This document shows, in pieces, positions 1 to 21,792 of a DNA stretch of 64,000 bases. Position numbers and translations under genes: made by a program. Position 1 is the stretch's first letter. The number at the start of each line of letters is the position of its first letter. Origin of the DNA: Acidobacteriota bacterium (GTDB lineage: Bacteria > Acidobacteriota > Terriglobia > Terriglobales > Acidobacteriaceae); contig JAJYVF010000004.1 of NCBI GenBank assembly GCA_021792135.1, positions 1-64,000 of the forward strand, given 5' to 3'. Below the pieces are notes generated by a model. The model saw nothing but the letters and a program-made list of their open reading frames with translations. It was not told the origin of the DNA and ran no database searches.

Positions 1-2
1 CC

Positions 3-715
3 GTCTCGCTCTCTCAGCTGACCCCCGCCAATCCCGACGACTCAACCCGCCAGGCGATCGAGGACTGGCACTACTGGCTCGCACAGGGATACTGCTTCTG
101 ATCTGTGCATGCCTGCCGAAAGCTCACGGAAGGTCATGGCACGAAGCGGCCCGCCGTAGACATCGTCAGATTGCGATCAGCGATTTTATCAGTGCGGGTG
201 AGTGGCTTGTGTCCAACGCTATAACCTCGCCGCGTCTACTCGGGATATTTGGGGGATCCAACGCGGGCCTATTGGTAGGTGCTGCAATCACTCAACGACC
301 GGATCTCTTCCAAGCCGCACTTTGCATCTCTCCCCTTCTCGATATGGTGCGCTATGAATCGTTCGACGACGCGACGAAATGGCGGCACGAATATGGAACC
401 GTCAATGACAGAGAAGATTTCGCTGCTCTTTATTCCTATTCTCCCTACCATCGAATAGAAACTGAGGTGGACTATCCGTCCACGATGTTTGTAACCGGCG
501 ATCTCGATGATAAATGCAATCCTGCACATGTCCGCAAGATGGTTGCGCTGTTGCAGGCGCGACCACCTCAACGGAACGCGATCATCGTAGATTACAGTCG
601 CGAGAGAGGACATTCTCCTGTCCTACCGCTGTCAGTGCGCATCGAAGCGTTGGCGAGACGTATCGCGTTTCTTTGCCAGGAACTCGGCATGGAGATACCT
701 TCTGGAGGTTTCTGA
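3..715 (+). pseudogene. S9 prolyl-oligopeptidase-type serine peptidase, C-terminal part, frameshifted; 5' end outside window
   Basis: This is the catalytic alpha/beta-hydrolase end of a prolyl-oligopeptidase-family peptidase. From about base 101 to the stop at 713-715 one frame carries Ser in GGSNAGLL, Asp in GDLDDKCNP and His in RERGHSP. The preceding homologous stretch (ending WLAQGYCF, stop at 99-101) is in another frame. The gene is therefore broken by a net one-base shift near 95-101, or there is a sequence error. A GTG at 209 could start a short product, but that would omit the start of the catalytic domain. The TGA overlaps the ATG of the lasso B2 gene by one base, so the two are translationally coupled. 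Peptidases of this class recur in lasso-peptide clusters; the substrate is unknown. Confidence 0.72.
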
Positions 716-1092
716 TGACCAGACTGTTATTCGAGAGTTATTTACTTTTGATTGGGATCGAAGTGATGCTGCGCCGCGCCGATCTCTCCGCAATTCATGC
801 CCGGGTTCGAGACCAGCAGATCTCATTTAGACAGAATCGGCCCGGTCTGGCATTCACGGACATCTCTTCTGCTGTCGATCTAGCCTGTGCATTGTTTCCA
901 AAGCGCGTGCTATGTCTACAACGCGCTGTCGCCACAACTATTGTGCTGCGGAGACATGGGTTTCCAGCTGACATGTTGATTGGCGTGCAGCTCATTCCAT
1001 TCAAGTCCCACGCATGGGTTGAGATCGATGATCAAGTTGTGAACGACAAGCCTTACATGCGCGACATTTATCGAGTGATTGATCATTGCTGA
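715..1092 (+). CDS. Lasso peptide biosynthesis B2 protein (McjB-type transglutaminase-like leader peptidase)
   Basis: This 125-residue protein matches the stand-alone B2 domain that cleaves the leader from a lasso precursor. The cysteine-protease triad is visible: Cys67 in RVLCLQRA, His99 in FKSHAWVE and Asp111 in QVVND. The start is ATG at 715, overlapping the upstream stop as TGATG; longer readings would run through the peptidase gene in another frame. B2 proteins need a small RRE (B1, PqqD-like) partner to bind the leader. None lies between here and the precursor, so it is probably upstream of the window. The next gene, the cyclase, begins 13 bases downstream. Confidence 0.88.
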   Translation: MTRLLFESYLLLIGIEVMLRRADLSAIHARVRDQQISFRQNRPGLAFTDISSAVDLACALFPKRVLCLQRAVATTIVLRRHGFPADMLIGVQLIPFKSHAWVEIDDQVVNDKPYMRDIYRVIDHC

Positions 1093-1105
1093 TAAGGAGA
1101 TGGTA

Positions 1106-3052
1106 ATGAGTATCATCTTCGGAATCCGGAAGCCTATGGGATGTCCCATACACTCCCGAGAACTGGAAGCAAGAGCGACCGCCACGGCTCGGTATGCCCT
1201 TGACGGAACATTCGTGCGAACTGATGGGCCAATCGGAATGGGTTTTCAGCCCTTCCACACCCATGTGCGCTCAAAGCTTGAGGCACAACCGCTCAAAGAC
1301 TGTAGCGGCAATCTACTGGTGTTAGATGGCAGGCTAGACAATTGGCAGCACCTCCGCAATATTCTTCGTATTGAGGATCGCGACGTCTCCGACTCAGCGC
1401 TCATATTAGCAGCATTTCGACGTTGGGGAGAGGATTGCTTCTCAAGACTGATCGGCGACTGGGCGATAGCTCTTTGGTCTCACCAGCTCTGCACACTCTA
1501 TTTGGCGAGAGATCATGCAGGCACACGGACACTTTATTTCTGCAGTACTAGAGAAGCGGTCGGCTTCGCCACCTATTTGGAGACTCTTCTTGCTGGCGGC
1601 GAACAATATGGTCTCGACAAGAAGTATGCTGCTCGGTTCCTTACGCATCAGCCAATCGGAGAGTTAACGCCGTATGACGGGATAAGGGCTGTCCCTCCGG
1701 CTCATTACCTCATAATAAGCAATGACTGCCTACGCGCCAGGTCACATTGGAACTCGATCAGCAGTGTTCAGACTCGCTACAGGCAGAGCAGCGAGTATCA
1801 GGACCACTTCATGGAACTCCTCTCAACCTCGTTATCTCGGAGAACCAGCGAAGGAGCCCCCATCATTGCGCACCTCAGCGGCGGGATGGACTCCACGTCG
1901 CTTGTTTGCCTTTCAGATCATATAAGAACAACTCAGAGCCACGATGCGGAGCTTCTCGATACGCTTTCCTATTACGATGATACGGAGCCAGGCTGGAACG
2001 AAAAGCCTTACTTCTCGCTCGTAGAGGCAAGGCGCAAGAAGACGGGGATTCACATTGCCACTTCGGCGGGCGAGCGCGCTTTCCAGGTCTTAGATCCAGC
2101 CGAGGGCACCTACTGTTTCCCAGGAGACGACAATGGATCCCTCGTGCAAGAGCGTATTTTTGAGGAGTCCACCAACGGTAAGGGGTACAGGGCGGTAATC
2201 TCCGGAATTGGCGGCGATGAACTCCTGGGAGGAGTGCCAACGCCATATCCAGAACTCGCGGATTATATGGTGACCGGGCATATTGCGCGATTATTACGGC
2301 AGGCTATGAAATGGGCTCTCGCCAGTCGGAGGCCAGCCGTCGAACTCTTAGTCGATACTGCCAAATTCGCGTTTGGCCTATATAGCGGCAGACGCTTGGA
2401 CGATTATATGGAACCACCGTGGATCACCGCGTCTCTACGTAGGCAACGCACCGGCCGAGATACTCAGTTGCAAAGTGACCCGAGAAGGTTTGGCCGGCGG
2501 CCGAGTGCGGTGAGCAGCGGGCTAGCCTGGTGGCTCGTTATGGAGACGCTACCGCACAGGCAACCGAGAGTTCTTTCCAGGCTTGAGTATCGCTATCCAT
2601 ATCTCGATCGTGACCTTGTGAACTATCTCTTTAGCCTACCTCGCGAAGAGCTCCTCCGTCCCGGCGAGCGCCGCTCATTGATGCGTGCCGCTTTGGCTGA
2701 TATCGTTCCTCAGGAGATTCTGAATCGGAGACGCAAGGCTTACTTAATTCGCGGGCCTATTGCCTCCTTACAGGCTGCTAAAGCCGCGATTTTGGAGCTG
2801 TTCACGGACCCGCTAACAGCTCAATGGGATCTTATAGATCCGGCGGTCTTCAAGAGACAAGTTGACTGCACAACGCGACGAGCAGATCCCCAATGGTGGG
2901 CGAGCATCACAAACACCATCAGTATGGAATTGTGGCTCCGAGCGTCGCCTTCCTACACTTCGAGTGCGGTGCGCATTCCCGCGACCCAAGACCTGCTTCA
3001 TACACATTGGAGCAAACGAGATCCATGCAAGTCAGGTTGCTCGTTGACTTGA
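1106..3052 (+). CDS. Lasso peptide macrolactam synthetase (asparagine-synthetase-like C protein)
   Basis: This 648-residue protein has a class-II glutaminase-like N-terminal domain (about 1-200) and an asparagine-synthetase ATP-pyrophosphatase domain with the PP-loop SGGMDS at 258-263. In lasso clusters this enzyme adenylates an Asp/Glu side chain and closes the isopeptide ring on the N terminus of the core. The N terminus reads MSIIFG, with Ser where glutamine-dependent enzymes have catalytic Cys2. Glutaminase activity is thus lost, as expected for lasso cyclases. The ATG at 1106 was chosen because AAGGAG lies eight bases upstream; ATG at 1100 is too close to it. It sits between the B2 protease and the candidate precursor. 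Confidence 0.9.
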   Translation: MSIIFGIRKPMGCPIHSRELEARATATARYALDGTFVRTDGPIGMGFQPFHTHVRSKLEAQPLKDCSGNLLVLDGRLDNWQHLRNILRIEDRDVSDSALILAAFRRWGEDCFSRLIGDWAIALWSHQLCTLYLARDHAGTRTLYFCSTREAVGFATYLETLLAGGEQYGLDKKYAARFLTHQPIGELTPYDGIRAVPPAHYLIISNDCLRARSHWNSISSVQTRYRQSSEYQDHFMELLSTSLSRRTSEGAPIIAHLSGGMDSTSLVCLSDHIRTTQSHDAELLDTLSYYDDTEPGWNEKPYFSLVEARRKKTGIHIATSAGERAFQVLDPAEGTYCFPGDDNGSLVQERIFEESTNGKGYRAVISGIGGDELLGGVPTPYPELADYMVTGHIARLLRQAMKWALASRRPAVELLVDTAKFAFGLYSGRRLDDYMEPPWITASLRRQRTGRDTQLQSDPRRFGRRPSAVSSGLAWWLVMETLPHRQPRVLSRLEYRYPYLDRDLVNYLFSLPREELLRPGERRSLMRAALADIVPQEILNRRRKAYLIRGPIASLQAAKAAILELFTDPLTAQWDLIDPAVFKRQVDCTTRRADPQWWASITNTISMELWLRASPSYTSSAVRIPATQDLLHTHWSKRDPCKSGCSLT

Positions 3053-3092: not shown

Positions 3093-3236
3093 ATGCGTTA
3101 CACATCTCCACAGCTTTTGACAACCTATCCCGCGATCGCCCGCATCCAGAGCCTTGGCTCCTTCAAGTCGATCCAAGCAGTGGACAACGGCGCTCCAGGC
3201 CTCAACAGCAATACGGCGTACGAGGCAGACGAGTAA
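3093..3236 (+). CDS. Candidate lasso peptide precursor (47 aa)
   Basis: A 47-codon ORF starts 40 bases after the cyclase stop and ends just before a strong hairpin. Its N terminus contains Tyr3-x-x-Pro6-x-Leu8, the YxxPxL leader motif recognised by the RRE of lasso pathways. The C terminus is hydrophilic and ends AYEADE. The usual leader Thr at -2 followed by Gly1 is not seen. Asp31 could be the ring acceptor if the core starts at Ser23, Phe24 or Lys25 (9-, 8- or 7-residue ring). Glu44 would fit a start at Gly36 but leaves only three tail residues. The role is inferred from position and leader motif; the core boundary is undecided. Confidence 0.72.
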   Translation: MRYTSPQLLTTYPAIARIQSLGSFKSIQAVDNGAPGLNSNTAYEADE

Positions 3237-3339: not shown

Positions 3340-5637
3340 TCATTTCCGCCAAGCCGACGTTCCTGCCGCATCGTCTTGCACACCTCGCATCACGCGCCAT
3401 CGATCATATTGAGTGACATCTTCCGGCTGGGGCCTCTCGTATCCTTGCAGCCAGAACCGATACCAATCGACGTTTCGTTGCAAAGAAGCCAATCTAGCAC
3501 GCGGGTGGTCCAGTTGGTGCTCCTCAGTGGGGTAGTAATACAGTTCCACAGGCCTCTTCAAGCGGCTTAAACCGACAACTGTCTCAAATCGGACGGCAAG
3601 ATTTAGCGGAATAGTCATCTGCGTGTCGTACTGCGTACCATAGCCCATCGTCTCCAACAACAGAGGAGTATGAATCTTCTCGAGATTAAACGATAGCGAA
3701 TATGTCTCCCAATTACGCAATGATTGGCCATATGGCGGACCACCATATAGACTCTCAAAGCTCTGCGCCATTGAAGGCGAGAAATTCAGCCAATATTCGC
3801 TCAGATTATATTGGATGTTGTCCGCAGTTGTTGCCGCACGAAAATGGTTCCTTGAGTGGGCGAGGATGAACTCAGTAAGCCATCCAGTATGGCTATACCC
3901 GATAATGCCAATCCGTTTGGGATCTATGATTCCCATCCTGTCCAGCGCCGAGATTGCGCTGTCCCATTTGTCCATGTTGAACTCTGCTTCCCCTATACCC
4001 CCGGGGTACCCCTTAGGGTAGTGTTCTGGATCGTCAGTGGCGGTACCCCCTCGCGGCGGCGTTTCAACAAGGTACATGATTCCGCTGTCCGCGAGGGGTT
4101 GTGGCGCAAAGGAAGGGTAATGAGTCCAGCCGCTATCACAAAAAAAGTCGCTTTGCACCGGCTTCGTTCCTATGACCAGCGGATATCTTGTGCCGACAAC
4201 ATAATTCGGCGGCATAAACAACAGGCCTGTCACCGCGACTCCTGTCGAAGTCTCCCAGCGGATTTGCCGTGTAGGTGCAACCTGAAGTAGCTGGAATTGC
4301 GGGTTCAGGGCGGTCAGCACCTCCATTCGCCCGCCTGGGATGTATCTGAAGATTTCAGGGGGAGTTGCAGGATCCTGGTAGTCACCTATCACACTGGTGC
4401 CGTCAGTCGCCATATGCACAAGATGGCTGCTGGCGGGGAATGGTAACTGTAGGCGAGATAGTTCATTCCACGCTCCGCCTCTGGAGACAAAAGTCGTGAT
4501 CGCGTCCTCGTTCGTCTGAACTAGCAGCTCTCCACTGCTTTTCCACAATAGAGGCTGATCGTTGATCGATGCCGGGTGCGCTGGAATTGTCGCGACTTGT
4601 TTTAGCGTTGGGTCGACCCAGAACAGGGAAAACTCCTGAGAAGGGTCTTTACGTTGCCTTATAGCATCGTCTTCCCACTTGCTGTTAATCGGCGCCGCTG
4701 CGGTCAGAACAAACGCCCTGCCGTCATTCGACCATAGTGGGATACTCATCGACCAGGCTGTACCTATTGGCACGGTGGCAACATTTGTCGCGAGATCCTC
4801 AAGCACAGTAACCTCAGGATCGTACCCTCTACCCATCATGGACTTGATTTGAGCACTGTCCCTCCATTCTGCGGACATTTCTGCGGCGTGCTCCAAATAT
4901 GAGAGTGTCAGATACCTGCCATTAGGAGAAAGGCTCAACCTAAGCGATAGGATATACGGAAAGTGTGTAAGCTCCCGGCTTGTAAATGGCGACATTAGCA
5001 TAAGCCTAATTGGCCTTTTCCAGACTCCGTCTCTGCCCTTACTCAGGACGTTTATGCTTCTGCGGGGAAACATTGAGGCCCTATCGTTTGCGAACGCAAT
5101 ACGATACCCAGATGCAATGGCGGCAGGATCCTGAGAGGGTGAGGGAGGGGGTATGTGTGCCACCTCTGTACCATAGACGACTCGATTACCCTTTCCATCT
5201 ACGCTGAACTCTCTCACGTCACCTGCTGACTCAAGAATCGTCTCTCGCGTATGTCGCACCACGTCGACAAGAACAATGGCTTTCGTGACTCTGTCGCTCA
5301 CAAGTACGGCTACATGTTTCCCGTCCTCCAGCCACTGTAATTGCGAGATGCCCTCCGCTCGAAAGACAACGCGATCCTTCTGTGTCATATCACCTGAGAG
5401 AGGAAGTATGTGGAGCTGTACGTCGTTGCGATTGGTCTTAAGATTAGGGGCCTGAACTAAGTAGGCCGCCAGCGACCCCTGCCTATTTATCGTTATTTCT
5501 CTTCTCATCGAGAGATCGCGAGGCACTCTCCGAATCTCGACACAATCGGCGGCCTCTATCGGCCGTTGTTGCGCCGGCAGCAGACTTATATGTAGGGCGC
5601 ATAATAAGATCCACATGGACCGTCTCCAGCTTGTCAT
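3340..5637 (-). CDS. Secreted S9-family hydrolase, lasso peptide isopeptidase-like
   Basis: This 765-residue protein has a signal peptide at about 1-22 (MTSWRR, then a hydrophobic stretch ending PAQ), a beta-propeller-like middle and a C-terminal alpha/beta-hydrolase domain. Nucleophile Ser582 is in GYSHTGWL and His707 in EEHQLDHP; the acidic residue is less clear. Lasso isopeptidases of the Atxe2 type have this layout and open the ring after uptake. Start 5637 was chosen because it gives a clean signal peptide and AAGGA lies eight bases upstream; ATG at 5697 in the same frame has no ribosome site. It follows the TonB-dependent receptor gene on the same strand and converges on the lasso operon. 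An ordinary exported peptidase is the alternative. Confidence 0.78.
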   Translation of the reverse strand: MTSWRRSMWILLCALHISLLPAQQRPIEAADCVEIRRVPRDLSMRREITINRQGSLAAYLVQAPNLKTNRNDVQLHILPLSGDMTQKDRVVFRAEGISQLQWLEDGKHVAVLVSDRVTKAIVLVDVVRHTRETILESAGDVREFSVDGKGNRVVYGTEVAHIPPPSPSQDPAAIASGYRIAFANDRASMFPRRSINVLSKGRDGVWKRPIRLMLMSPFTSRELTHFPYILSLRLSLSPNGRYLTLSYLEHAAEMSAEWRDSAQIKSMMGRGYDPEVTVLEDLATNVATVPIGTAWSMSIPLWSNDGRAFVLTAAAPINSKWEDDAIRQRKDPSQEFSLFWVDPTLKQVATIPAHPASINDQPLLWKSSGELLVQTNEDAITTFVSRGGAWNELSRLQLPFPASSHLVHMATDGTSVIGDYQDPATPPEIFRYIPGGRMEVLTALNPQFQLLQVAPTRQIRWETSTGVAVTGLLFMPPNYVVGTRYPLVIGTKPVQSDFFCDSGWTHYPSFAPQPLADSGIMYLVETPPRGGTATDDPEHYPKGYPGGIGEAEFNMDKWDSAISALDRMGIIDPKRIGIIGYSHTGWLTEFILAHSRNHFRAATTADNIQYNLSEYWLNFSPSMAQSFESLYGGPPYGQSLRNWETYSLSFNLEKIHTPLLLETMGYGTQYDTQMTIPLNLAVRFETVVGLSRLKRPVELYYYPTEEHQLDHPRARLASLQRNVDWYRFWLQGYERPQPEDVTQYDRWRVMRGVQDDAAGTSAWRK

Positions 5638-5718
5638 CCACATTGTCCTTGATTGCTTGGGATCGATGATTTCCGACGTGCGTGAGTAACTGTGCATCGG
5701 GGAAAGGGCCGCTTCGGG

Positions 5719-8700
5719 CTAAAATATCAACTTGAGAGCAAATTGCATCGAGCGAGGTCCGCCTTGCTGGAATTGCGATGCTAATGTGCCTAGACTCTGG
5801 TTGAGCATTTTGGTGCTCTGACCAAATGTCAGATCCGTCAATCCAGAGTCAACATAGCCAAAGGTTGGATGGTTCAAGATGTTGAATGCTTCTGCGCGGA
5901 ATTGAAGGTTGAAGCGCTCATAGATATGAAACTCTCGCCTTGCCGCTAAATTGATCTCTGTCTCCCCAAATCCTCTTACGAAATTACGTGGTGCGTTCCC
6001 TGCGACAGTCCCTGACGCGGGAGTGAAGGCAGACTTATTGATCGCTTTTCCGCCAGGACATTTCCCTCCTGGAAGATTAGGGCATGAGGAGCCCCGGAGA
6101 TATAGCGGCTGACCAGCCACGAGATTCACGCCGCTGTAGTACTCCTGGCCTGTAGCTGTATTTGTTAGGTATGAGCCTCCGAGAGTTACAGGAAATGCGG
6201 TTCTTGCTATCATGCGGCCGTCCACTCCCCACTTGCCGCCAATACGTTTGAGGAGAGTGCTGTTGCTGGGAAAGGATATGTCCCAACTCAGCCCTGCTGA
6301 GAAACTGCTGCGCACGTCGAAATCCGAGTTTCCGCGCGCTAGCGGCACGACGGAGGCATTTGAGCCGAAGTCGATCGCATGGGACCACGTATACGCACCC
6401 AGTGCTTGAACACCTTTGGTCACCGCCCTCTGAAGCTGAACCTGGAGTGCTTGGTAGTTAGAAGTGACATTGTTCGGAAAGTAATTGATTGAGCCAAAGT
6501 TTGGATTCAGCTGTGTCAAGGTGAGTTGTTGCTCTCCAATCAATCGTCTGCCATTAGCGCCTATATACGATAGTGTGAATGACGCTGTACGAGTAACTGC
6601 TTGTTCGACACTAAGATTCCATTGCCATGTGTATGGCAACTGAAGGTGGCTTGGATATGCCGTGACTACACTACTCGTATAGGGAGGCGTAACCGACGGC
6701 CCAAATGCAAGCTGACTGGGAGTTATCGGGAGTGTCCCCCCCGAGGAAGAAGTTTGAGCACTAAAGCCAATGCCTGACCACCCGACAGATGTAGGCTCAT
6801 TTGCGGAGTCAAAGAAGATGCCGCCGCCCGCACGAACGACTGTTTGCCAATCCGGGTCGGCATGAGTTGCCCAAGCCATTCCGAGACGTGGAGCGAAGTT
6901 GTACCGATACGTATGCCAGAGTGGAGTTCCAAGCGGGGCTAGAGTAAGAGAACTCGGGTTACCAATATTGCCAGCCAGTGTGTAGGCGTCCTTTCCGTTC
7001 GCCCCCGTCGGAGGTGGATCTAGTTCCCACCGTAAGCCGAATGAAAGATGGAGTCTACCATTTACTCGCCATTCATCTTGAGCGAAAAGGGCCAGCTCGT
7101 TGAAGATGGGTTGAGATTGGATGCGCTGGAGAATTTCAAGGTACGAAGCACTGTTGTGGGCTACTGAACTAGCGCTTAGATACTCTCCTAACACGAGTGG
7201 CGAAGATGGAGTGGTAGTGGCTATGAGCCTCCGATAGTCTCCTCCAAATGAAATCTGATGATGTCCTGACGAGATGCTAGTTGTATCGTTGATATTCCAC
7301 TGGCTTAACTGGTTATTTGAGTCTTGATACGTTAGCGTACTGAGTCCGATGCCAGAGATGTAGAGAAGTATGTACGGCTGCGGACTGCTGTACCCAGCGA
7401 TACCCATCGTACTTGGAAGGTTGATAGGGGTCGCACCGCCAAAAGAGTCGATACTACCTGTCAAGGATGCAGACGACTTGGCATATCCCATGCGCACGTC
7501 GGTCGCTATCGTATCTGTCACTTGGCCGGTGAAGCCAAGGGTATACGTAGATGCATTGTTCGCGAGTTCACTTAATGCGGACAGTGAGCGCGTATCTGTC
7601 GAAGTTGGAGTATAGCCGTATCTGAAAAATAGCGCTGCCTTTGGTGTAAGGTGTTGGTCAACTCGTAAACTCGTTGAATCGATGCGGCTTGGTATCGAAT
7701 AAGAGCTGATGAACTGAGCAAGACTGGGACTTCCCGAGGTTCCATAGTCCGTGCCATTCTGCAGTGGAAAAGCATTCAGAATAGGCTGCAACGCAGGAGC
7801 CGCTAGCTGACGCATAAACGTATCAGGCACATAGAGGGTTTGAGCAGCTTGAGGTTGTGTCAACCTCAACCCTTCATAAGATGCAAAGAAAAATGTATCC
7901 TTTCTTCCGTCATATATCCGCGGTAGGCGGATGGGTCCTCCCAGTGTGCCGCCGAAGTCGTTCTGACGTAATGCGGCTTCTGGTTTTCCATAAAGGTCAT
8001 TAAACCAATCGTTAGCGTCAAAGTAATTGTTACGCAGATAGTCAAAGGCGCTGCCGTGAACTTCGTTCGTTCCCGAGCGAGTTATGAATGAGAACTGTCC
8101 GCCCGGCGTACGACCATAGGCAGCCGAATATGTTGAGCTTTGAACTCGGAATTCTTGTAGTGCGTCTACCGAGATGATGCTTTGTGTTGTTCCTAATGCA
8201 GTCGACGCACTGAGCGATCCGCTGGCCCCAGGAGTCGATTGGCCTGACCCATTACCGGGACTTATGTTGGCACTGACGCCGTCGACAGTATAGTAATTGG
8301 ATTCCGTTCGCTGTCCGTTTACACTGAAATCACCATTGTTTCCAACAGCAGATTGAGCCTGAGGGCTTTGTGTTATAATGCCAGGGGTCATTGCGATGAG
8401 ATCTTGGAATGATCTGCCGTTTAGCGGAATGTTCTCGACAAACTTCTGGTCAATGACCGTCCCTACGGATGCATCTGTTGTATTGATCGTTAGACCGCTG
8501 CCATCTACCGTCACTGTTTGTGCTGACGGGCCCACCTTTAGCTTAATGTCAAGGTGCTTCTCATCACCCACGTTCAAGACGATGCTGTTGACGGTAAGGT
8601 CGGCGAAACCTGCCTTTGACAGTGTCAGGTCGTAGTGTCCAGGTTTTAAGAATGGAAAGTTGGCGCTTCCCAATGTGCTGCTGAGCGCAGTCTGCTGCTG

Positions 8701-8886
8701 AGTTGTGTCACGGTTGCGTAGAGTTGCTATTGCGTCGGAAATGACCGCACCAGAAGTGTCTGAGACAGTGATATTTAGGCTAGCTGAACTCGCGTCGGCG
8801 AAAGCCATGGACGAAGCACCGCAACACAGCGAGAGTACGCACATCGAGGAAACAAGTCTGCGAACAAGTACTTCAAAGTAAGACAT
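5719..8886 (-). CDS. TonB-dependent receptor with N-terminal carboxypeptidase-regulatory-like domain
   Basis: This 1055-residue outer-membrane protein has a signal peptide at about 1-30, then a carboxypeptidase-regulatory-like beta-sandwich (about 35-115), a plug region and a large beta-barrel ending in Phe (ALKLIF), the usual outer-membrane insertion signature. This Oar-like form is abundant in Acidobacteria. It lies between the sigma-factor fusion gene (46 bases upstream) and the isopeptidase-like gene on the same strand. In proteobacterial lasso clusters the receptor next to the isopeptidase imports the lasso peptide. Import of the product of the neighbouring cluster is inferred here. Confidence 0.9.
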   Translation of the reverse strand: MSYFEVLVRRLVSSMCVLSLCCGASSMAFADASSASLNITVSDTSGAVISDAIATLRNRDTTQQQTALSSTLGSANFPFLKPGHYDLTLSKAGFADLTVNSIVLNVGDEKHLDIKLKVGPSAQTVTVDGSGLTINTTDASVGTVIDQKFVENIPLNGRSFQDLIAMTPGIITQSPQAQSAVGNNGDFSVNGQRTESNYYTVDGVSANISPGNGSGQSTPGASGSLSASTALGTTQSIISVDALQEFRVQSSTYSAAYGRTPGGQFSFITRSGTNEVHGSAFDYLRNNYFDANDWFNDLYGKPEAALRQNDFGGTLGGPIRLPRIYDGRKDTFFFASYEGLRLTQPQAAQTLYVPDTFMRQLAAPALQPILNAFPLQNGTDYGTSGSPSLAQFISSYSIPSRIDSTSLRVDQHLTPKAALFFRYGYTPTSTDTRSLSALSELANNASTYTLGFTGQVTDTIATDVRMGYAKSSASLTGSIDSFGGATPINLPSTMGIAGYSSPQPYILLYISGIGLSTLTYQDSNNQLSQWNINDTTSISSGHHQISFGGDYRRLIATTTPSSPLVLGEYLSASSVAHNSASYLEILQRIQSQPIFNELALFAQDEWRVNGRLHLSFGLRWELDPPPTGANGKDAYTLAGNIGNPSSLTLAPLGTPLWHTYRYNFAPRLGMAWATHADPDWQTVVRAGGGIFFDSANEPTSVGWSGIGFSAQTSSSGGTLPITPSQLAFGPSVTPPYTSSVVTAYPSHLQLPYTWQWNLSVEQAVTRTASFTLSYIGANGRRLIGEQQLTLTQLNPNFGSINYFPNNVTSNYQALQVQLQRAVTKGVQALGAYTWSHAIDFGSNASVVPLARGNSDFDVRSSFSAGLSWDISFPSNSTLLKRIGGKWGVDGRMIARTAFPVTLGGSYLTNTATGQEYYSGVNLVAGQPLYLRGSSCPNLPGGKCPGGKAINKSAFTPASGTVAGNAPRNFVRGFGETEINLAARREFHIYERFNLQFRAEAFNILNHPTFGYVDSGLTDLTFGQSTKMLNQSLGTLASQFQQGGPRSMQFALKLIF

Positions 8887-8932: not shown

Positions 8933-11900
8933 CTAGTCGTTGACGTCTGTTCTGTCAAACCTGTAGAGGCGCTCGATGGTTGCGCGGAGCGCGCGTTCCT
9001 CAGCTTCGAGGTCGGAGGTCAATTGCGTAGCGGTAGCAAGGTTGATGTTTTCGGGGAGTCCTGACGTAGAGAGCGTAAAGCCCGTCGTGAGCAGACGGTC
9101 GAGCTGTTCGGCATCATGGTTGAGAAGGATCGTGGATCGGCCGAGTTGGTCCACATTTTGAGGCTGTATGGGCGCACTGAGCGGTGCAGGGAGACGCGCA
9201 TTCGGGTCGCGTCGAATGTGACTGAGGTCGGAGCGGAGGAGGGCACTTTGTCGTTCGAGGGATTGGAGGTGTTTGTCGAGGAGTGTGAGCCAGAGCACCT
9301 GGTCTTCGGTTGACATTCGTCGCAGCTCGTCTGCCGTGAAATCTGTAGCTGCGATCTGACAGAGGGACCATGCTTCGCGATGAAGCTGCGCACCGCGCGT
9401 CGCAATGTCATTTGCGACCTGTCGAACCCGCTCGTCAAGTTGCCCGCCGGAGAGTCCCTCAGTCTCTAATCCGGCGCGCAGCTCGGGATCAAATGGGATC
9501 CTTTTCGTATCGACATCGACGGGCGCGAGCGACTCGATACTTATCTGGTGGGCGACAGATGGCGTGCTTAGTGTCTCGTCGCTGGAGTGAAGATCGAGTC
9601 GAAGTCGATCGCCGCCGTGGAGTGCTTCAAAGATGTGCGCAACCGACGCTTTTTGCTCGGACGTCGAGAAGACTCCATTCAGTTCGATGGTTCCGTCCGG
9701 CTCTCGCTCAAGATTGACGATTTGCTCGACGTCCGGGCCGAGATTATCGAGGAGTTGAAGGGCTTCGAGCGCCAGATGCGCCGAATCTCCGACGCCGGTC
9801 GATGTAGTCAGGGACTCGGCGGGATTGCCGACAAGGGAGGACAGGTCCGGATCGAAGTCGCGGTCAGACACTTTGTCGGCAGGCAGGACCTCATACTTCA
9901 ACTCATTGAATCGGTATTCGCGCGTTGTTTCTCCATTGCGCAGGAGCAGAGTTTCACGGACCGCGCGCATGGAGTCGGCCGCGAGCGCAAGATCCGCCGA
10001 TACGAGTGTGGCTCTATTTCCACCGGCAGTCTCAGGGTTGTCGTATGTGATATCGAAGCTGTCCGCGCGGCGCTGCACCTTCAAGTTGTTCGAATCGGCG
10101 CTTAGTAGATTGAAGTCTTTCGCGTCCGGAGCGTGTGTCCAGGCGTCAAAAAAGGTGAGCGGCACAGCGTCCGCTGCCGGGTGATCGACACCAGACCCTG
10201 CTCTATAGATGGTCATTTTCCCTGCAGCGTCCTTCCAGCGCCCGGCAAGAAGATTTCCCTTTGTGTCGAGGAATCGAGCGGCCGTCCTGCGCGGAGAAGT
10301 GCTGCTCAGCGTGTCGACTGTTCCCGATTGGATAACCCGGCCGTCCTGGGATCGAATCTCAAGCGAGAATGTGCGATGGGCGGCGCCGCGGACTGGAATG
10401 GCGGCGTCGGCCCTGTGCTGAGACTCGGCAAGCAGCGCTGCGGCCTGGAGTTGCACGGGGAAACTCTGATTCGACCTGCTGGCCCAGTACATCGATAGCG
10501 CGAGCAAGCTCATAAGGGCGGTCGCGCTGACAACACTCAGCGGCCAACCAACATCAATCTTTGTCAACCAAGCTGAGAGAATCCTTTTCAGGCGCCTCAG
10601 GGCGCCTAGCGCTTCATGTGGCGCTACTGGATGTGGGGCCTCAGGGAATACCGGAGGACGCAATTCTTCGTCATAGGCCCAATCTTCGTCCGCCGCTTCG
10701 AGGAGTGGGTCGTAATAGCTGACATCGACGATTGGAGCGCCGCCGCCGAAATTGAGTTCGAGCGCGAGTGCCCGGTTATCGCTGAGAGTGGCTTCCGCTT
10801 GAAGTTGTGAGGATTCCAGGACGTCGTAGTTTTCAACGTCGAGACACAGCAGCCGGAGTTTCTGCTCGCTCCTCACTTCAATGAAACTGGGCAGTGAAGC
10901 CGAGTTCAGTTTGATTTGGAATCGGCTTGTCGCTGAGGTGATCTGTTGGGCGCTGTGCACTTCACCATCGACCACCAGTTCAAGTCTCTTTGGTCGGTGT
11001 TCATGAATATCTCGCGCCTTCTTGCGCATCTTGGTCAATGGCTCTTGCTTTGAACGCGAAGACGATTTCGGTGGCTTGCCGTCGTTGGGATCGTTGAAAT
11101 CGTCAGAGAAACGTAGGGGATGGCCGAGTAGTCGAAGCAAGCGATTTGCCCTTTCAAGACATGCTTTACAACTCGCGAGGTGGGCGACTTCATGAGTCGT
11201 CAGTTGTTCCTTGGAGTTGCTGGCATAGAGAAGCTCAAGACGGGCAGGAGCAAAGCAAGGGCCCTCCGGTTCCGCGAAGATGCGCCGGCTCAGCTCAGCG
11301 AACAGGGCTGATGGCGACTCCGGGAGATGGCGCCGGGAGAATGGCGTTGCGGGACGGTTGTTGCTCCCGAGGAAATGAAGCGATTCCGGCCGCGTCAGGA
11401 ACGCCTTGGCTTCAAGGCGACCCGTCTCGGTCAACTTGTATACTGCAGCGCTCGATGCTTTTAGAAGCTGAACGATCTCGGACGGATAGTAGTTGAGAAA
11501 GAACCGGAAGATGAGAACACTGCCGGCCCGCGAGGTTTTTCGGCGCAGGCAACAGTATTCGCAGATCCTGGCCAGATCGCTACGAATATAGAGCAGTCTC
11601 GATCGGTCGACCGATGCAAGGGCGAACTCCATGGAGTCATAGTCCACGGGCTGAAGACTTTGAAAGGCGTCGCGTCCTCCGCTCTCATAGTTTGACTTGG
11701 CGAGGCGCTGGAGCGTCCGGTAGAGGTAGCCACGCAGGCGGTTCTGGTCGTCAAGTTGGATGTCGGTGGCCGCCTGGATGAATCGGACGTAGCAGTCGTG
11801 AACCAGGTCCTCCGCCGCCGATTGCGCGCCATGTGAAAGCTGGAGCGCTCGCCGGAGCAGCCATTCATAGTGATCGAGGAAGACTTTTTCCCGATCCGCG

Positions 11901-11935
11901 GCCTGTTCCACTCTATGGATCCTGCGTGAGCCCAA
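8933..11935 (-). CDS. ECF-type sigma factor fused to zinc-finger, transmembrane and large C-terminal domain
   Basis: This 1000-residue protein looks like a sigma factor and its membrane regulator in one chain. Residues 20-80 resemble sigma region 2 and about 140-180 region 4 (FRFFLNYYPSEIVQLLK). An anti-sigma zinc-binding signature follows at His252-x3-Cys256-x2-Cys259. After a charged linker there is one transmembrane helix at about 463-484, then some 515 residues that would be periplasmic, with coiled-coil-like stretches. The start is TTG at 11935, preceded by AAGGGGGA. It heads the operon with the TonB-dependent receptor and isopeptidase-like genes, the slot usually held by separate FecI and FecR genes. 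Sigma activity is probable but region 4 is divergent. Confidence 0.75.
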   Translation of the reverse strand: MGSRRIHRVEQAADREKVFLDHYEWLLRRALQLSHGAQSAAEDLVHDCYVRFIQAATDIQLDDQNRLRGYLYRTLQRLAKSNYESGGRDAFQSLQPVDYDSMEFALASVDRSRLLYIRSDLARICEYCCLRRKTSRAGSVLIFRFFLNYYPSEIVQLLKASSAAVYKLTETGRLEAKAFLTRPESLHFLGSNNRPATPFSRRHLPESPSALFAELSRRIFAEPEGPCFAPARLELLYASNSKEQLTTHEVAHLASCKACLERANRLLRLLGHPLRFSDDFNDPNDGKPPKSSSRSKQEPLTKMRKKARDIHEHRPKRLELVVDGEVHSAQQITSATSRFQIKLNSASLPSFIEVRSEQKLRLLCLDVENYDVLESSQLQAEATLSDNRALALELNFGGGAPIVDVSYYDPLLEAADEDWAYDEELRPPVFPEAPHPVAPHEALGALRRLKRILSAWLTKIDVGWPLSVVSATALMSLLALSMYWASRSNQSFPVQLQAAALLAESQHRADAAIPVRGAAHRTFSLEIRSQDGRVIQSGTVDTLSSTSPRRTAARFLDTKGNLLAGRWKDAAGKMTIYRAGSGVDHPAADAVPLTFFDAWTHAPDAKDFNLLSADSNNLKVQRRADSFDITYDNPETAGGNRATLVSADLALAADSMRAVRETLLLRNGETTREYRFNELKYEVLPADKVSDRDFDPDLSSLVGNPAESLTTSTGVGDSAHLALEALQLLDNLGPDVEQIVNLEREPDGTIELNGVFSTSEQKASVAHIFEALHGGDRLRLDLHSSDETLSTPSVAHQISIESLAPVDVDTKRIPFDPELRAGLETEGLSGGQLDERVRQVANDIATRGAQLHREAWSLCQIAATDFTADELRRMSTEDQVLWLTLLDKHLQSLERQSALLRSDLSHIRRDPNARLPAPLSAPIQPQNVDQLGRSTILLNHDAEQLDRLLTTGFTLSTSGLPENINLATATQLTSDLEAEERALRATIERLYRFDRTDVND

Positions 11936-12271
11936 GATTCCCCCTTCACTCTAACTACCGATTGAAGCGCCATTTCTGACGTTCTGCGAACGATTGCCAA
12001 TTTCGTTAGATTTGGGCGCGCAGAATTCTCCAAGGCCGCAAAACTCGACAGTCTTGCAAGGTTGTGAGCTTTGCGAATCAAGATCGAGGATGTCGTTGCG
12101 GGCGGCCTGTCGGTGTCCGAGTGGTGGGGAGAGGCAGGGTCTACAAAGCTGCAGCTACAAAGGGATGGAAGAGGATTTGGGAACAACGACAGCAAGCCCT
12201 CTGTGCTAGAAGCACAGCGAGCGTCGAGGCTGGCAAAATCGAGAGCAGATTGTATGGTGTGGCGCCGGCAG
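11936..12271. other. Intergenic region upstream of the sigma-fusion operon
   Basis: These 336 bases separate the response-regulator 3' end from the sigma-fusion start and must hold the promoter of the latter operon. No confident -35/-10 pair was identified. A small perfect hairpin, CTGTGCT/AGCACAG with a 3-base loop (12201-12217), lies 55 bases after the response-regulator stop but lacks a U tract. Confidence 0.4.
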
Positions 12272-13009
12272 TTATTGGGCAGGCACGACGCTGGTCACAG
12301 CCAGCCTGTATCCCTGGCCCCGAACGTTCTCGATCAGATCCTGAACCTTGGCCTTCTCGAACTTCTGGCGAAGGCGATAGAGGATCGTGTCCAACGCAGA
12401 GGTCTCACGCCGCACGTCCTTACCCCACGCGATCGTGAGCAATTCTTCCGAGGAGAAGATTTTTGAGGGGCTTGCAGTGAGCGCCGCCATGATCTTGGTC
12501 TGCTGCACACTCAGCTCGATGAAGGTGTTGCCGACGGCCAGCTGTCTTTCCTGCCGATCCACCTTGATCTGGTTGGCTGCGACCCAGCGGGTCGTGGGCG
12601 ATTTGGTCCCCAATAGCCGCTCATCTCGGCGGAAATGCGCCTGGATGCGGGCCAGAAGCACGCGAAACGATTCTCCCCGCTTGATGATGTATTCATCAGC
12701 TCCAGCGTCGAGCGATGCGGTCATGTGGAACTCGCTCGACATGACCGAGTGGACGAGTATCGGCACGTTGATGCCCGCAGCACGAAACTGCCGTACCAGT
12801 CCTGTTCCGTAGGCCGGGTTCGGACTTCCTTTGCTTTCCTCTTTAAGGTTCAGGTCGAGGATGATCAGATCAAAATGGGTCTTGTCCACCAGATCCTGTG
12901 CCGATTCAACGTCTCGGGCCAGTTCCACATGGAATTTTGCCCGTTCAAGCTTCCGTTGAATTTCAACACTCATCTCCAACTCGTCATCGACGAGCAGCAA
13001 CGATTTCAT
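12272..13009 (-). CDS. OmpR/PhoB-type response regulator
   Basis: This 245-residue regulator has a receiver domain at 1-120 with acidic pocket Asp8-Asp9-Glu10, phosphoacceptor Asp52 in LIILDLNL and conserved Lys110 in EYIIKRG. A C-terminal winged-helix DNA-binding domain follows (about 145-240, ending RGQGYRL). No histidine kinase is adjacent, so it is an orphan whose kinase must lie elsewhere. It is on the same strand as the sigma-fusion operon, 336 bases upstream, but a regulatory link is only a guess. The receiver has an insertion after the phosphorylation site (EESKGSPNPAYGTG). Confidence 0.9.
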   Translation of the reverse strand: MKSLLLVDDELEMSVEIQRKLERAKFHVELARDVESAQDLVDKTHFDLIILDLNLKEESKGSPNPAYGTGLVRQFRAAGINVPILVHSVMSSEFHMTASLDAGADEYIIKRGESFRVLLARIQAHFRRDERLLGTKSPTTRWVAANQIKVDRQERQLAVGNTFIELSVQQTKIMAALTASPSKIFSSEELLTIAWGKDVRRETSALDTILYRLRQKFEKAKVQDLIENVRGQGYRLAVTSVVPAQ

Positions 13010-15066: not shown

Positions 15067-15498
15067 TTACTCAGGAGCTTCGTCCGGCAGATTGTAGCGC
15101 CGGACCGTAAAATCCCCGTCTAGCTCCTCGAGATCAACCTCGATGACTTCATTGATGAAGTGCTCGGCACTGCCGATCTCTTCGAGGGCAGCCTGAAAGA
15201 GCTCGCGCTGAAGGGGGGACCTCATGCCGTCAGGGCCATTGAGGCACACCAATCCGGCGTGGATCGGGACATCTGCATACTGCCCCTTTGTGCCTGGGCT
15301 TTCTGCCGGTCCCCTGAAATCGGCGCTGTTCCGGGTAACGAACGTCCAGTCGCCGTTCAGGATGAAGGTTTTTAACTCCCAGTCCTTCCACCCGGCCTTG
15401 CCTAGCCAAGTGACATGGGAGCTCTCCGGAAACCCCGCACCAACTGCCACCGCTACTAAATCCGGGCTCAGGCACTCATCGATCAAAAACTTGAGCAC
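15067..15498 (-). CDS. DUF5615-like PIN-fold toxin
   Basis: This 143-residue protein has the Mut7-C/DUF5615-type PIN-like start VLKFLIDECLSPDLV, with acidic residues for metal binding. A second conserved part reads WTFVTRNSADFRG. Members paired with DUF433 proteins are regarded as VapC-like toxins acting on RNA. GTG at 15498 was chosen because GGAGGG lies seven bases upstream and the reading then begins directly with the first beta strand. The antitoxin gene ends four bases upstream on the same strand. Confidence 0.82.
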   Translation of the reverse strand: MLKFLIDECLSPDLVAVAVGAGFPESSHVTWLGKAGWKDWELKTFILNGDWTFVTRNSADFRGPAESPGTKGQYADVPIHAGLVCLNGPDGMRSPLQRELFQAALEEIGSAEHFINEVIEVDLEELDGDFTVRRYNLPDEAPE

Positions 15499-15502
15499 GC
15501 AG

Positions 15503-16135
15503 TCACCCTCCAATAGAGGAGGGCCGTAGCCGCTTTTTGATATATGACTTTCCTGCAGTCATAGTGGATGGTTTTTGCCTCGGGCGCCCCTTCGGCGGAA
15601 CTGCCCGAGCGTATACGGGAGCCAGTTCAACCTGCCAGTTTTTCAGGCTGGGGTAAGTATCGAGGATCTCTTCCGTCGACACGCCCGCTTCGACCATGGC
15701 GGCGACATCGTAGACCGGAACGCGGGTCCCTTTGAAGACCGGCGTGCCGCTCAAGATCTCGGGATCCTCGATCACCGCTTCGCGGGCTCTCGCCAGCTTG
15801 TGGAGGCGTTCATCGACGCCCTTCCATATCTCGGAGAAATGCACGGTTACAGAATTCTCTTCGAAGACGCAGTTCTTCCAAGCATCCCAGCCGGAACAAT
15901 GCGTTAGTGCGTTCCGAATCGCGCGGTTGCGGGCCTGCGCCGTGAGCTGCTCCGCGGTTTCGAAATAGAACGCGATCAGGACACACGCGTCCGTTCGGAA
16001 TGTCCTCATCTGTGCCGTGCTGTACAGGTCTTCGGGCAGGATCTTTTCATCGATCATGCGGTGGATCTGTAAAACCGACACCCCAGCCGCAATGGCTGCT
16101 TCGGTGGTTGTCAGACGCTCCATGAAGACTTCCAT
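15503..16135 (-). CDS. DUF433 antitoxin with extra N-terminal helix-turn-helix domain
   Basis: This 210-residue protein has a canonical DUF433 segment at about 130-170 (SGTPVFKGTRVPVYD, then GVSTEEILDTYPSL), the usual antitoxin of DUF5615 toxins. Stand-alone DUF433 proteins are about 75 residues. Here a MerR-like helix-turn-helix (LTTTEAAIAAGVSVLQIHRM) and a middle domain precede it, and a basic tail follows. ATG at 16135 has GGGAGG five bases upstream. The gene is divergent from imuA and four bases upstream of the toxin; it probably represses its own promoter. Confidence 0.82.
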   Translation of the reverse strand: MEVFMERLTTTEAAIAAGVSVLQIHRMIDEKILPEDLYSTAQMRTFRTDACVLIAFYFETAEQLTAQARNRAIRNALTHCSGWDAWKNCVFEENSVTVHFSEIWKGVDERLHKLARAREAVIEDPEILSGTPVFKGTRVPVYDVAAMVEAGVSTEEILDTYPSLKNWQVELAPVYARAVPPKGRPRQKPSTMTAGKSYIKKRLRPSSIGG

Positions 16136-16330: not shown

Positions 16331-17092
16331 ATGCAGAGCGCAGCGATTGTACGAACACAAATTGAAAGCATGCTCGAGGCGCGTATTCCCTCAGCGTTGA
16401 CGCCGAAACTGCGACCTGCACAGGAGTGCATCTGTTGCGGAATAAATGACATAGATCTCCTTGAGGTTTTCCGGCGTGGAAGTCTGGTGGAAGTTTGCGG
16501 CCCTTCTTCATCGGGTCGGACAACGCTGTTTCACGGATTGTTGTCCCGCTGCACATCCGGGGGAGAGGCGGCCGCGGTTCTCGACGTCACGGATAGCTTT
16601 GACCCGGTTTCTGCCTCCCACCTTGGCGTGGTCCTGAGTGAAGTCCTATGGGTTCGTTGCGGAGCGGCTCGAAGCCAGGGGCGTCCCCTTTCGGCCCTCG
16701 AACAGGCGCTGGCTGCTGCGGATCTCCTGCTGCAAAGCGGAGGATTCGGGCTCCTTGCACTCGATCTCGCGAATATACCGATGAAGGAGGCGCGGCAGAT
16801 TCCGCTGACGGTCTGGTTCAAATTCCGCCGCGCCGTTGAGGCGACTCGGACACTGTTCCTGCTTCTCGCCCAGCAGCCGAATGCCGGCAGCAGTGCGAAC
16901 ACGCTCGATGTCTCTCAGGCTGGGATTGATGTCGAGGAATCGGCAAGGTCCTCGACTGGGGAACACATCGATGGCGACTGCCTGATCAGGACCCTCCGCT
17001 CTCGCGCGCAGGTGATGAGCGGACAGGTGCGCAAGCCGGTCGGTTCTGTCCGTACAGAGGGCGAGTTTTCGGCCCGCCTTTATGAGTTGTAG
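16331..17092 (+). CDS. imuA: ImuA, RecA-like mutasome accessory protein
   Basis: This 253-residue RecA/SulA-like protein opens the imuA-imuB-dnaE2 operon for damage-induced mutagenic synthesis. A P-loop-like motif GPSSSGRTT is at 57-65. The invariant Walker A Lys is Arg, as in other ImuA proteins to my knowledge, so ATP hydrolysis may be lost. ImuA proteins recruit or regulate ImuB and DnaE2. ATG at 16331 lacks an evident ribosome site. The imuB start codon follows nine bases after its stop. A GGAACCGCAAAA motif lies 50 bases upstream of the start and resembles one before dinB. Confidence 0.88.
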   Translation: MQSAAIVRTQIESMLEARIPSALTPKLRPAQECICCGINDIDLLEVFRRGSLVEVCGPSSSGRTTLFHGLLSRCTSGGEAAAVLDVTDSFDPVSASHLGVVLSEVLWVRCGAARSQGRPLSALEQALAAADLLLQSGGFGLLALDLANIPMKEARQIPLTVWFKFRRAVEATRTLFLLLAQQPNAGSSANTLDVSQAGIDVEESARSSTGEHIDGDCLIRTLRSRAQVMSGQVRKPVGSVRTEGEFSARLYEL

Positions 17093-17101
17093 GGGCGCAT
17101 C

Positions 17102-21600: not shown

Positions 21601-21792
21601 GAAACGGGGATCGCGAATGCCGTCATTACGCCGAGACTATACGACCGGTATCGTCTTCTGCTGAACAAGGCGAGATTCCTTCTCATTGAAGGAAAAATGC
21701 AAAACCTGGATGGTGTTCGCACTGTGCGTGCAGAGACCATTCAGCCGTTGAATGTAACCGGTGTTTCGATGGCTTCGCGCAGCTTCCGATAG
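18607..21792 (+). CDS. dnaE2: Error-prone DNA polymerase DnaE2 (ImuC)
   Basis: This 1061-residue C-family polymerase alpha subunit has an N-terminal PHP domain (YVELHARSAFSFLAGAS), the catalytic Asp motif PDIDLDLPSG and the downstream KFDLLGLG motif. A C-terminal OB-fold follows (about 980-1045). The length matches DnaE2 rather than replicative DnaE1. The enzyme carries out damage-induced translesion synthesis with ImuA and ImuB. ATG at 18607 overlaps the imuB stop and gives the normal N terminus MGYVELHARS. Confidence 0.95.
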   Translation: MGYVELHARSAFSFLAGASLPEMLAEVCAAQGISAIGLLDQDGLYGSPRMHMAAQKLGLKAHVGAEVSVEDLLFGEAARCRYPLLVETRTGYQNLCRLITTFKLRENHKGEGAAAFSEVEEHASGLICLTGGDEGPLSEALVRGGFDEALRTVERLAHTFGPKNVYVELQRHRNRQQAIRNKAAVSIARALHLPLLATNGVLYATPREREIQDVMTAIRLHSTLEGAGTTLQGNAERYLRSGTEMETLFADLPDAVRNTEVLSERLKFELKDLGYELPRYPVPQGESMMSFLRERTREGWNWRYGSSTSESLKERARKQVERELALIEKLDLAGYFLIMWDLVRFCKERGTLAQGRGSAANSAVCFSLGITIVDPVGMDLLFERFLSEERGEWPDIDLDLPSGDQREEVIQYLYRKYGQRGAAMTANVITYRTKSAAREVGKVLGLAEDTLAEVSAAVSSFEWRDPTDTLEEHFRHAGLDLTNPTIHTYLSLSARMQDLPRHLGQHSGGMVVCQGHLDAVVPLEPASMPGRVVLQWDKDDCSDFGLIKFDLLGLGMMAVIDESLSLIRSEYEEDLDLAHLPQDDPDVYRAIQEADTIGVFQIESRAQMSSLPRTRPKCFYDLVKQEAIIRPGPIQGDFVNPYILRVLGRQEITYPHPLLEPILARTLGVPLFQEQILKIAMVMADLSGGEAEQLRRAMGSKRSVAKVQAMESLLRSRMTAKKVVPKVQYEIIRLIQAVGHYMFPESHAASFASLTYASAYLREHYRAAFTAAILNQQPMGFYSPDSIISDSQRHGLKVHYIDVNASAWLCTLELSNDLAPKQQLRVGLRYVRELRQTAGDAIVRAREEGGRFLSVSDLWERVPELHGDELTKLAEVGALNSTYESKTDGHRRAALWDAARAIQSPGPLFRNLKDEASNAPLERMTDEERLLADYQGTGMTTGPHPLFYSRGQLNGMGVTTAVRLRSVSNEFRVTIAGFAITTQRPGTANGFLFMSIEDETGIANAVITPRLYDRYRLLLNKARFLLIEGKMQNLDGVRTVRAETIQPLNVTGVSMASRSFR

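Follow-up and report, generated by a model that had tools for sequence, protein, structure and literature searches.

Hybrids of a sigma factor with its own anti-sigma partner are known. IutY of Pseudomonas putida, a 374-residue ECF243 hybrid whose periplasmic part is FecR-like, responds to aerobactin by undergoing cleavage through Prc and RseP, which frees a 23-kDa sigma fragment (PMC5411451, PMC9249621); it has been described as unique among cell-surface-signalling systems in being a hybrid (PMC5411451). Members of the extracytoplasmic function (ECF) groups ECF48, ECF52 and ECF53 carry a zinc finger and a transmembrane helix (PMC8999054), and ECF52 proteins are expected to be released by proteolysis (PMC8999054, PMC5826349). 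In lasso-peptide clusters with an isopeptidase, a TonB-dependent transporter and sigma/anti-sigma pairs are usual, and a GntR-like regulator is also named (PMC9266682). Here, we analyze a 64,000-nucleotide stretch of an Acidobacteriota genome (hereafter the window; assembly GCA_021792135.1, contig JAJYVF010000004.1, positions 1 to 64,000) and a gene at 8933..11935 on its minus strand, the hybrid gene, whose 1000-residue product joins an ECF sigma factor, a zinc-type anti-sigma motif, a membrane helix and a long periplasmic half. A first-pass annotation, made from the letters of this DNA alone, had contrasted the protein with a standard of separate FecI-like and FecR-like proteins; that it is one chain holds, whereas one chain as such is no novelty, given IutY and ECF48, ECF52 and ECF53. 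The combined analysis makes it a probable regulator of cell-surface signalling in a single chain, one that proteolysis would release and that is paired with the Oar-like TonB-dependent receptor encoded next to it.

One open frame for a sigma factor and a putative anti-sigma factor

The gene, the parts of its product and the adjoining receptor gene lie as follows.

8933..11935, minus strand: hybrid gene for a single-chain ECF sigma factor, putative zinc-type anti-sigma module, transmembrane helix and predicted periplasmic sensor (1000 residues, TTG start)
11666..11914, minus strand: sigma region 2 (residues about 8-90; Pfam Sigma70_r2, E 7.6e-7 at 20-84; helices in the model)
11366..11545, minus strand: sigma region 4 (residues about 131-190; within the SigH alignment of residues 7-185)
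11159..11257, minus strand: putative zinc anti-sigma site C227-x24-H252-x3-C256-x2-C259 (conservation across 38 proteins)
10700..11050, minus strand: conserved cytosolic beta domain (residues 296-412; folded alone, pLDDT 88)
10475..10540, minus strand: transmembrane helix (residues 466-487; hydrophobicity in relatives and a helix in the model)
9821..10456, minus strand: periplasmic domain with predicted LolA/RseB fold (residues 494-705)
9584..9793, minus strand: BON-like alpha/beta domain (residues 715-784; model topology)
8939..9490, minus strand: C-terminal helical region (residues 816-999; model)
5719..8886, minus strand: Oar-like TonB-dependent receptor (Pfam CarboxypepD_reg and OMP_b-brl_4; 46 bp downstream of the hybrid gene)

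The frame is intact over its whole length, and both sigma regions that the first-pass annotation had read in it are present. Pfam recognizes region 2 directly in the window protein (Sigma70_r2, 29.3 bits against a gathering cut-off of 24) and in 34 of 38 fused family members (the window protein and 37 homologues). Region 4 is recognized through nine of the 38 members, which match Sigma70_r4_2 (the window protein itself does not), and through a structural alignment: in the AlphaFold2 model of the window protein (mean pLDDT 79.8, pTM 0.47), residues 7-185 align with Mycobacterium tuberculosis SigH at Z 10.6, with a root-mean-square deviation of 19 that presumably reflects two sigma domains placed differently. 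The window's region 4 is too diverged for Pfam; with regions 2 and 4 the protein is an ECF (group 4) sigma factor.

When 398 genomes from this bacterium's family were searched with the hybrid at E 1e-10, 32 gave a match, spread over 14 of 79 genera. From 45 matched places we took 40 loci, the other five being the window itself, the second piece of a taken gene, a C-terminal fragment (G174), a partial match (G288) and L106. Uninterrupted fused frames of 844-1010 residues occur at 37 of the 40, and the remaining three are a broken frame (L056), a gene cut by its contig end (L068) and an unfused form (L074). The layout is thereby conserved in 38 proteins, the window's included. Named relatives come from Acidicapsa dinghuensis (69% identity), Granulicella sp. 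L60, Silvibacterium bohemicum (two copies) and Paracidobacterium acidisoli; metagenome-assembled genomes (MAGs) of Edaphobacter (L129, 1021 codons) and Pyrinomonadaceae (L135, 1051 codons) hold further single frames. Eleven named loci comprise nine from Acidobacteriaceae/Acidobacteriales (some of these family placements being our assumption), the Pyrinomonadaceae MAG and a Sphingomonas with a 70-residue match to region 2. A plasmid collection searched with the hybrid gave no match.

The first-pass annotation had itself raised the possibility of a frameshift that merged two genes. Related loci do have separate sigma and anti-sigma genes, which speaks for a sequencing or annotation error of this kind, but the 37 homologues besides the window keep open frames with identical domain order; the zinc motif is found in 37 of 37, and in 36 hydrophobicity peaks at 1.5 or more between residues 439 and 510 (L045 lacks a peak there). 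Moreover, the sigma domains of fused proteins form one supported clade (see below), and between the window and the 69%-identical relative L035 the nonsynonymous rate (dN) is lower than the synonymous rate (dS) in every block, linkers included, with the highest ratio, about 0.36, in the juxtamembrane block and dS saturated in three blocks. On the strength of the open frames, the single clade and the linkers we rejected the artefact, to which we attach practically no probability.

A zinc motif, a conserved beta domain and a single membrane helix

The H-x3-C-x2-C signature reported at first pass is present as HLASCKAC, and comparison of the family adds a fourth putative ligand to it: column 227 is cysteine in 35 of 38 proteins and histidine in three, while H252, C256 and C259 are invariant in all 38. 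By motif and position, the arrangement is that of a zinc-associated anti-sigma (ZAS) protein, with zinc binding and sigma inhibition predicted; the class I spacing used for comparison, [C/H]-x24/25-H-x3-C-x2-C, is what we take to be the form known from RsrA. The anti-sigma part differs from the FecR-like proteins of the standard cited at first pass, carrying this zinc motif instead. We rejected FecI/FecR membership, as Pfam matched neither a FecR nor an STN family in the hybrid or the receptor (E up to 1 for the window's hybrid and receptor, E up to 0.05 for the 38 hybrids).

Between the zinc site and the membrane lies the beta domain, whose residues H313, P315, L318 and Y407 are found in 38 of 38 proteins and rank among the most conserved of the chain. 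Structural comparison yielded no convincing solved relative (best Z 5.0, weak C2-like rows, no reliable match), and a profile of the domain run against PDB sequences found nothing meaningful. Among 396 genomes of the phylum the same profile gave 14 matches in 10 genomes, 12 of them in frames of 937-1036 residues, two of which are the fused genes of L150 and L151 in other families of the phylum; the other two are a 144-residue fragment (G162) and, in a genome of another family of the phylum (G729, locus L152), a 471-residue zinc/beta/transmembrane protein with a separate sigma gene nearby. L152 is perhaps the state before fusion. Its periplasmic part looks different, and the separate sigma gene there is of the fused type.

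A single membrane helix, as first annotated, spans residues 466-487 or so. The stretch before it (about 413-465) is of low model confidence and fast-evolving, and it bears on how the sigma part would act. Without proteolysis, the protein would be a membrane-tethered sigma factor switched when the zinc module and the beta domain change conformation; the conservation of a domain placed between zinc site and helix, with four invariant residues, favors such a switch, as does the small space for this domain in unfused relatives (see below). IutY, however, the only hybrid that a review calls experimentally characterized in this respect, is activated by cleavage, and the stretch before the helix would suit cutting more than transmission. 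We regard the tethered switch as quite improbable, and proteolytic release as the most likely mode of action on our analysis.

A predicted LolA/RseB-fold sensor that varies with the receptor

The chain continues for 513 residues after the helix, in agreement with the earlier estimate of about 515. It is not the single large domain then supposed but a predicted LolA/RseB fold followed by a BON-like domain and helices. Foldseek returned LolA at E 1.3e-5 and RseB at E 5.5e-4. VIA-align, whose list for the full model covers residues 494-704 only, returned a Bacteroides LolA-type protein at Z 15.7 (root-mean-square deviation 3.4 over 175 residues), RseB at Z 12.7 and MucB at Z 11.4, the LolA rows ranking above RseB. 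Residues 494-705 are thus predicted to have a LolA/RseB/MucB fold, and on this prediction sigma factor, anti-sigma factor and RseB-like sensor would be united in one chain. BON-type Pfam matches are weak and occur in one or two of the 38 members.

The hybrid gene stops 46 bp before the ATG of the Oar-like receptor gene, which confirms the position directly upstream of a TonB-dependent receptor, and the association recurs throughout the family. An Oar-like match follows on the same strand at 39 of the 40 loci (38 fused and L074), the fortieth, L068, ending with its contig; it also lies directly downstream of the fused genes of L123, L129 and L135 and of L150 and L151, from other families of the phylum. 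Every fused locus examined that has downstream sequence therefore has an Oar-like receptor gene next to it. The window's own genome, of 5.1 Mb, holds 31 Oar-like matches (E 1e-20), so such adjacency would rarely arise by chance. Among 20 unfused loci (L074 and 19 described below), 16 are followed directly by an Oar match; at L106 this place is taken by a different protein of TonB receptor type (CarboxypepD_reg and Plug), and L118, L119 and L120 have proteins of 1309-1374 residues that lack TonB-receptor domains.

Across 34 fused loci, sensor and receptor distances correlate with the cytosolic half held constant (partial r 0.415, p 0.0005), whereas cytosolic half and receptor do not with the sensor held constant (partial r 0.022, p 0.37). 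The LolA part correlates most strongly with the receptor (0.458), the sensor-receptor value persists when the lasso clade described below is left out (partial r 0.404, n=23), and 13 unfused loci give a similar one (partial r 0.384, p 0.0045). Within fused proteins it is, by these sequence comparisons, the sensor and not the cytosolic half that co-diverges with the receptor, and the two appear to behave as a unit, whether by direct contact or by joint recombination.

LolA and RseB bind lipid or lipoprotein. That activity and the predicted fold of residues 494-705 lend themselves to an envelope-stress sensor like sigmaE-RseA-RseB, in which the LolA/RseB-fold domain would bind lipid or a mislocalized lipoprotein or receptor and the receptor gene would merely belong to the regulon; L118-L120, with their large non-TonB proteins downstream and a position near a fused member in the sensor tree, fit as well. 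Against such a sensor stand the receptor gene next to every fused gene with sequence there, the co-divergence of sensor and receptor, and the lasso-gene context of the window's clade, and we consider it unlikely. Signalling paired with the receptor remains our preferred reading.

Unfused relatives and the history of the fusion

At L074 a 190-residue ECF gene has its stop codon overlapping the start of a 632-residue zinc/transmembrane protein with the same periplasmic part. With this protein as query (E 1e-8), 38 of the 398 family genomes gave 49 matches, 45 of them in frames of 585-689 or 950-1050 residues, and 20 further loci from this list comprise 19 pairs of an ECF gene with a zinc/transmembrane/same-sensor gene and one fused gene (L123). 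The distance from ECF stop to anti-sigma start is -17 to +29 bp in 17 of the 19 pairs; L107 departs from it owing to the chosen start. The unfused anti-sigma proteins have their zinc site near residue 39 and their transmembrane helix near residue 120, and they appear to have little room for a beta domain. At L122 (G106) the frame of sigma region 2 continues stop-free into the anti-sigma protein, with sigma region 4 in another frame.

The two halves of these proteins tell different histories. In a tree of sigma domains (38 fused and 19 unfused), one branch with 100/100 support separates fused from unfused, requiring a single change. In a tree of the 57 corresponding sensors the same labels need seven changes, at least four of them forced by well-supported branches, and fused sensors are kept together in 0% of 200 bootstrap trees, from a bootstrap that had not settled and a tree with some long branches, two of them joined. 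A tree holding the fused sensors together is 210.8 log units worse (approximately unbiased test, p 2.19e-72; eight rows, seven long ones and L122, were left out). The main caveat of these trees is alignment at such distances, often below 30% identity. A single sigma clade with interleaved sensors would mean one chassis lineage with several sensor exchanges, or else splits and refusions. Three fused/unfused sensor neighbors (L051, L074 and L105) come from one genome, G065.

A lasso-peptide-like setting in the window's clade

Beyond the receptor gene, the window carries genes that resemble a lasso-peptide cluster; the first-pass annotation had the receptor neighbor right and missed both this cluster and the unfused versions in the family. 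These genes, and a regulator gene upstream of the hybrid gene, are:

2..715, plus strand: S9 prolyl-oligopeptidase family protein, cut by the contig end (PF00326, E 2.5e-35)
715..1092, plus strand: lasso B2 protease-like protein (Transglut_core3 PF13471, E 1.8e-24)
1079..3052, plus strand: lasso cyclase-like asparagine synthetase homologue (NF033535 best family, 234 bits against a cut-off of 525)
3093..3236, plus strand: candidate lasso precursor (YTSPQL leader-like motif, YEADE end)
3340..5697, minus strand: S9-type peptidase, lasso isopeptidase-like (NCBIfam NF033523 best family, 174 bits against a cut-off of 400)
12272..13009, minus strand: PhoB/OmpR-type response regulator, upstream of the hybrid gene (Pfam)

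The hybrid, Oar and S9 peptidase genes, in that order, converge with the S9 peptidase, B2 and cyclase genes in the window and at 11 of the 40 loci (L035-L045), the closest relatives with contigs long enough to include this region. The second S9 peptidase adjoins B2 on the biosynthetic strand and has a match in the same place in all 11 of these relatives, and the B2 relative in L036 exceeds the NF033537 cut-off. Precursor candidates were sought by the leader motif YxxPx[L/I/V], which we take to be characteristic of such leaders; short open reading frames with the same motif and an acidic end lie beside the cyclase gene in 10 of the 11 relatives (not in L042), and the precursor's tblastn similarity is weak (E 2e-4 to 4e-4, in three of the 11). 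A B1/RRE gene was not identified in the cluster. Further afield, L129 has the same lasso-type gene set, and L135, from another family, has one match of the isopeptidase-like and one of the cyclase-like kind, after which its contig stops; given L135, the link with lasso genes could be an old one or the result of transfer. None of the other fused loci shows this set within the stretch taken, although an isopeptidase-like match occurs in L050 and L053. In this setting the hybrid looks like a one-gene form of the sigma/anti-sigma pair of lasso clusters.

Several smaller observations concern the same clade. L040 has two tandem precursor-like frames (12069-12215 and 12345-12494, minus strand), and in L036 a gene of the APH kinase family opens the biosynthetic operon, a place that the window's contig ends before. 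A response-regulator frame similar to the window's lies upstream of the hybrid gene in L036 and L037 (by Pfam for L036 only). The apparent start codon is TTG or GTG in the window and all 11 lasso-clade relatives and ATG in most other fused members, a tentative pattern, as starts of family members are the analyst's choice.

Proposed mechanism and the evidence that weighs against it

In the mechanism we propose, the zinc module would at rest keep the sigma part at the inner membrane in an inactive state. Once the receptor had bound its ligand, its state would be relayed to the periplasmic sensor; proteolysis at site 1, followed by RseP-like proteolysis at site 2, would free the N-terminal piece, and this sigma piece would direct RNA polymerase to the operon of regulator, receptor and isopeptidase genes. 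For the window, the ligand would most likely be the lasso peptide made by the neighboring genes, or its cargo. M50 and S41 protease families are present in the window's own genome, as in most control genomes. Since the window's receptor has no STN domain that Pfam matches (E up to 1), a contact of the FecA-FecR type is unlikely and the signal would probably pass through another contact, plausibly the LolA-fold domain.

The missing STN match is one of several points that count against this proposal. No zinc-finger Pfam family was found in the 38 members (13 families matched, E up to 0.05). A sensor profile run against PDB sequences found neither LolA nor RseB, so the link to them is one of predicted fold only. 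Since the 3' end of the sensor adjoins the receptor gene, joint recombination alone could produce their correlation, and across chassis (fused versus unfused) the correlation is absent (0.062, p 0.31). A first co-divergence run, on 51 of 56 loci including four with an unchecked neighbor, was weaker: the sensor-receptor value given sigma was 0.167 (p 0.006), the sigma-receptor value given the sensor 0.275 (p 0.107), and the cross-chassis value -0.08 (p 0.75). L106, L118, L119 and L120, whose downstream gene is not Oar-type, were dropped after this first look, which raised the sensor value to 0.294 over all 47 loci and left the cross-chassis value non-significant. As to the lasso setting, the isopeptidase-like and cyclase-like proteins score under the NCBIfam cut-offs, with lasso models as best families; four candidate precursors tested had no NCBIfam match; and most members of the larger fused family have no lasso cluster around them in the stretch taken. 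Nor do we claim a shared ECF promoter motif. An AAC[A/G]TCA...GTAG pair precedes the hybrid gene in the window and in both L035 and L036, with a looser pattern in L040, and expectation maximization on 12 upstream regions scored 131 against 77-84 for six shuffled sets, but what it picked up was mostly the ribosome-binding region and common descent; when 11 loci were scanned for the pattern, nothing emerged beyond the copies already known from L035 and L036, and the classical AAC-N-CGT form is absent from nearly all upstream regions.

Other genes in the window

Elsewhere in the window, 16331-21792 (plus strand) encodes in a row a RecA-like protein, an ImpB/MucB-type Y-family polymerase and a 1084-residue frame, an arrangement that presumably resembles the ImuA-ImuB-DnaE2 mutasome. 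Adjacent DUF433 and DUF5615 genes at 15067-16135 (minus strand) have what we take to be the make-up of a toxin-antitoxin-like pair.

Comparison with known systems

Searches of the literature on lasso peptides or ECF and anti-sigma factors in Acidobacteria, fused ECF factors, fused RseB/LolA regulators, IutY, and FecI/FecR in lasso clusters turned up no description of this protein in the portions accessible to us. Within that literature, the hybrid sigma/anti-sigma concept is already known; we saw no account there of the design with ZAS and predicted LolA/RseB-fold parts, the apparent receptor-linked exchange of sensors or the lasso-like setting of a fused regulator. The receptor gene beside sigma and anti-sigma functions is shared with FecI/FecR/FecA; STN and the FecR-type periplasmic domain are not. 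The FecI/FecR-like pairs of lasso clusters share the setting with a TonB-dependent receptor and an isopeptidase (isopeptidase-like in the window), whereas the window has a single gene with putative ZAS and LolA-fold parts, in Acidobacteriaceae.

ECF52 (SCO4117), ECF48 and ECF53 proteins likewise combine an ECF sigma factor, a zinc finger, a transmembrane helix and a long extracytoplasmic part. In the sources accessible to us, however, the ECF52 type is reported from Actinobacteria only, with proline-rich and carbohydrate-binding parts (no such Pfam family is found in the 38 hybrids), and a TonB receptor partner, which the window has, is not mentioned for ECF52, ECF48 or ECF53.

The sigmaE-RseA-RseB system distributes its work over three proteins: a sigma factor, a transmembrane anti-sigma factor that is not known to carry zinc, and a LolA-fold periplasmic regulator. 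The hybrid would take all three roles of this system (RpoE/AlgU), and differs in being one chain with a putative zinc site, BON-like and helical parts and an adjoining receptor gene. A bolder synthesis, which we offer tentatively and think rather doubtful as a whole, is that one polypeptide forms a complete relay of the sigmaE-RseA-RseB kind, that its sensor cassette travels with the receptor between one-gene and two-gene chassis, and that in one clade this relay has become a dedicated autosensor for a lasso peptide encoded nearby. Independently of this synthesis, the hybrid's setting ties lasso peptides, whose roles have been called enigmatic (PMC9266682), to a receptor and a transcriptional readout, a role testable by reporter. 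Because the unfused form occurs in the same family, and even in the same genome (G065), nature supplies both forms for a comparison of the effects of fusion.

The closest counterpart is IutY: both have a sigma factor, one transmembrane helix and a periplasmic anti-sigma or sensor half in one chain, and both have a TonB-dependent receptor as partner. IutY regulates its receptor gene, and we propose that the window protein does likewise. Unlike IutY, the latter has about 1000 residues, a zinc-type anti-sigma motif, a beta domain, a predicted LolA/RseB-fold sensor and no matched STN, and belongs to another phylum. It would thus stand beside IutY as another hybrid lineage, far larger, putatively zinc-based, and with a predicted sensor fold known from envelope-stress control.

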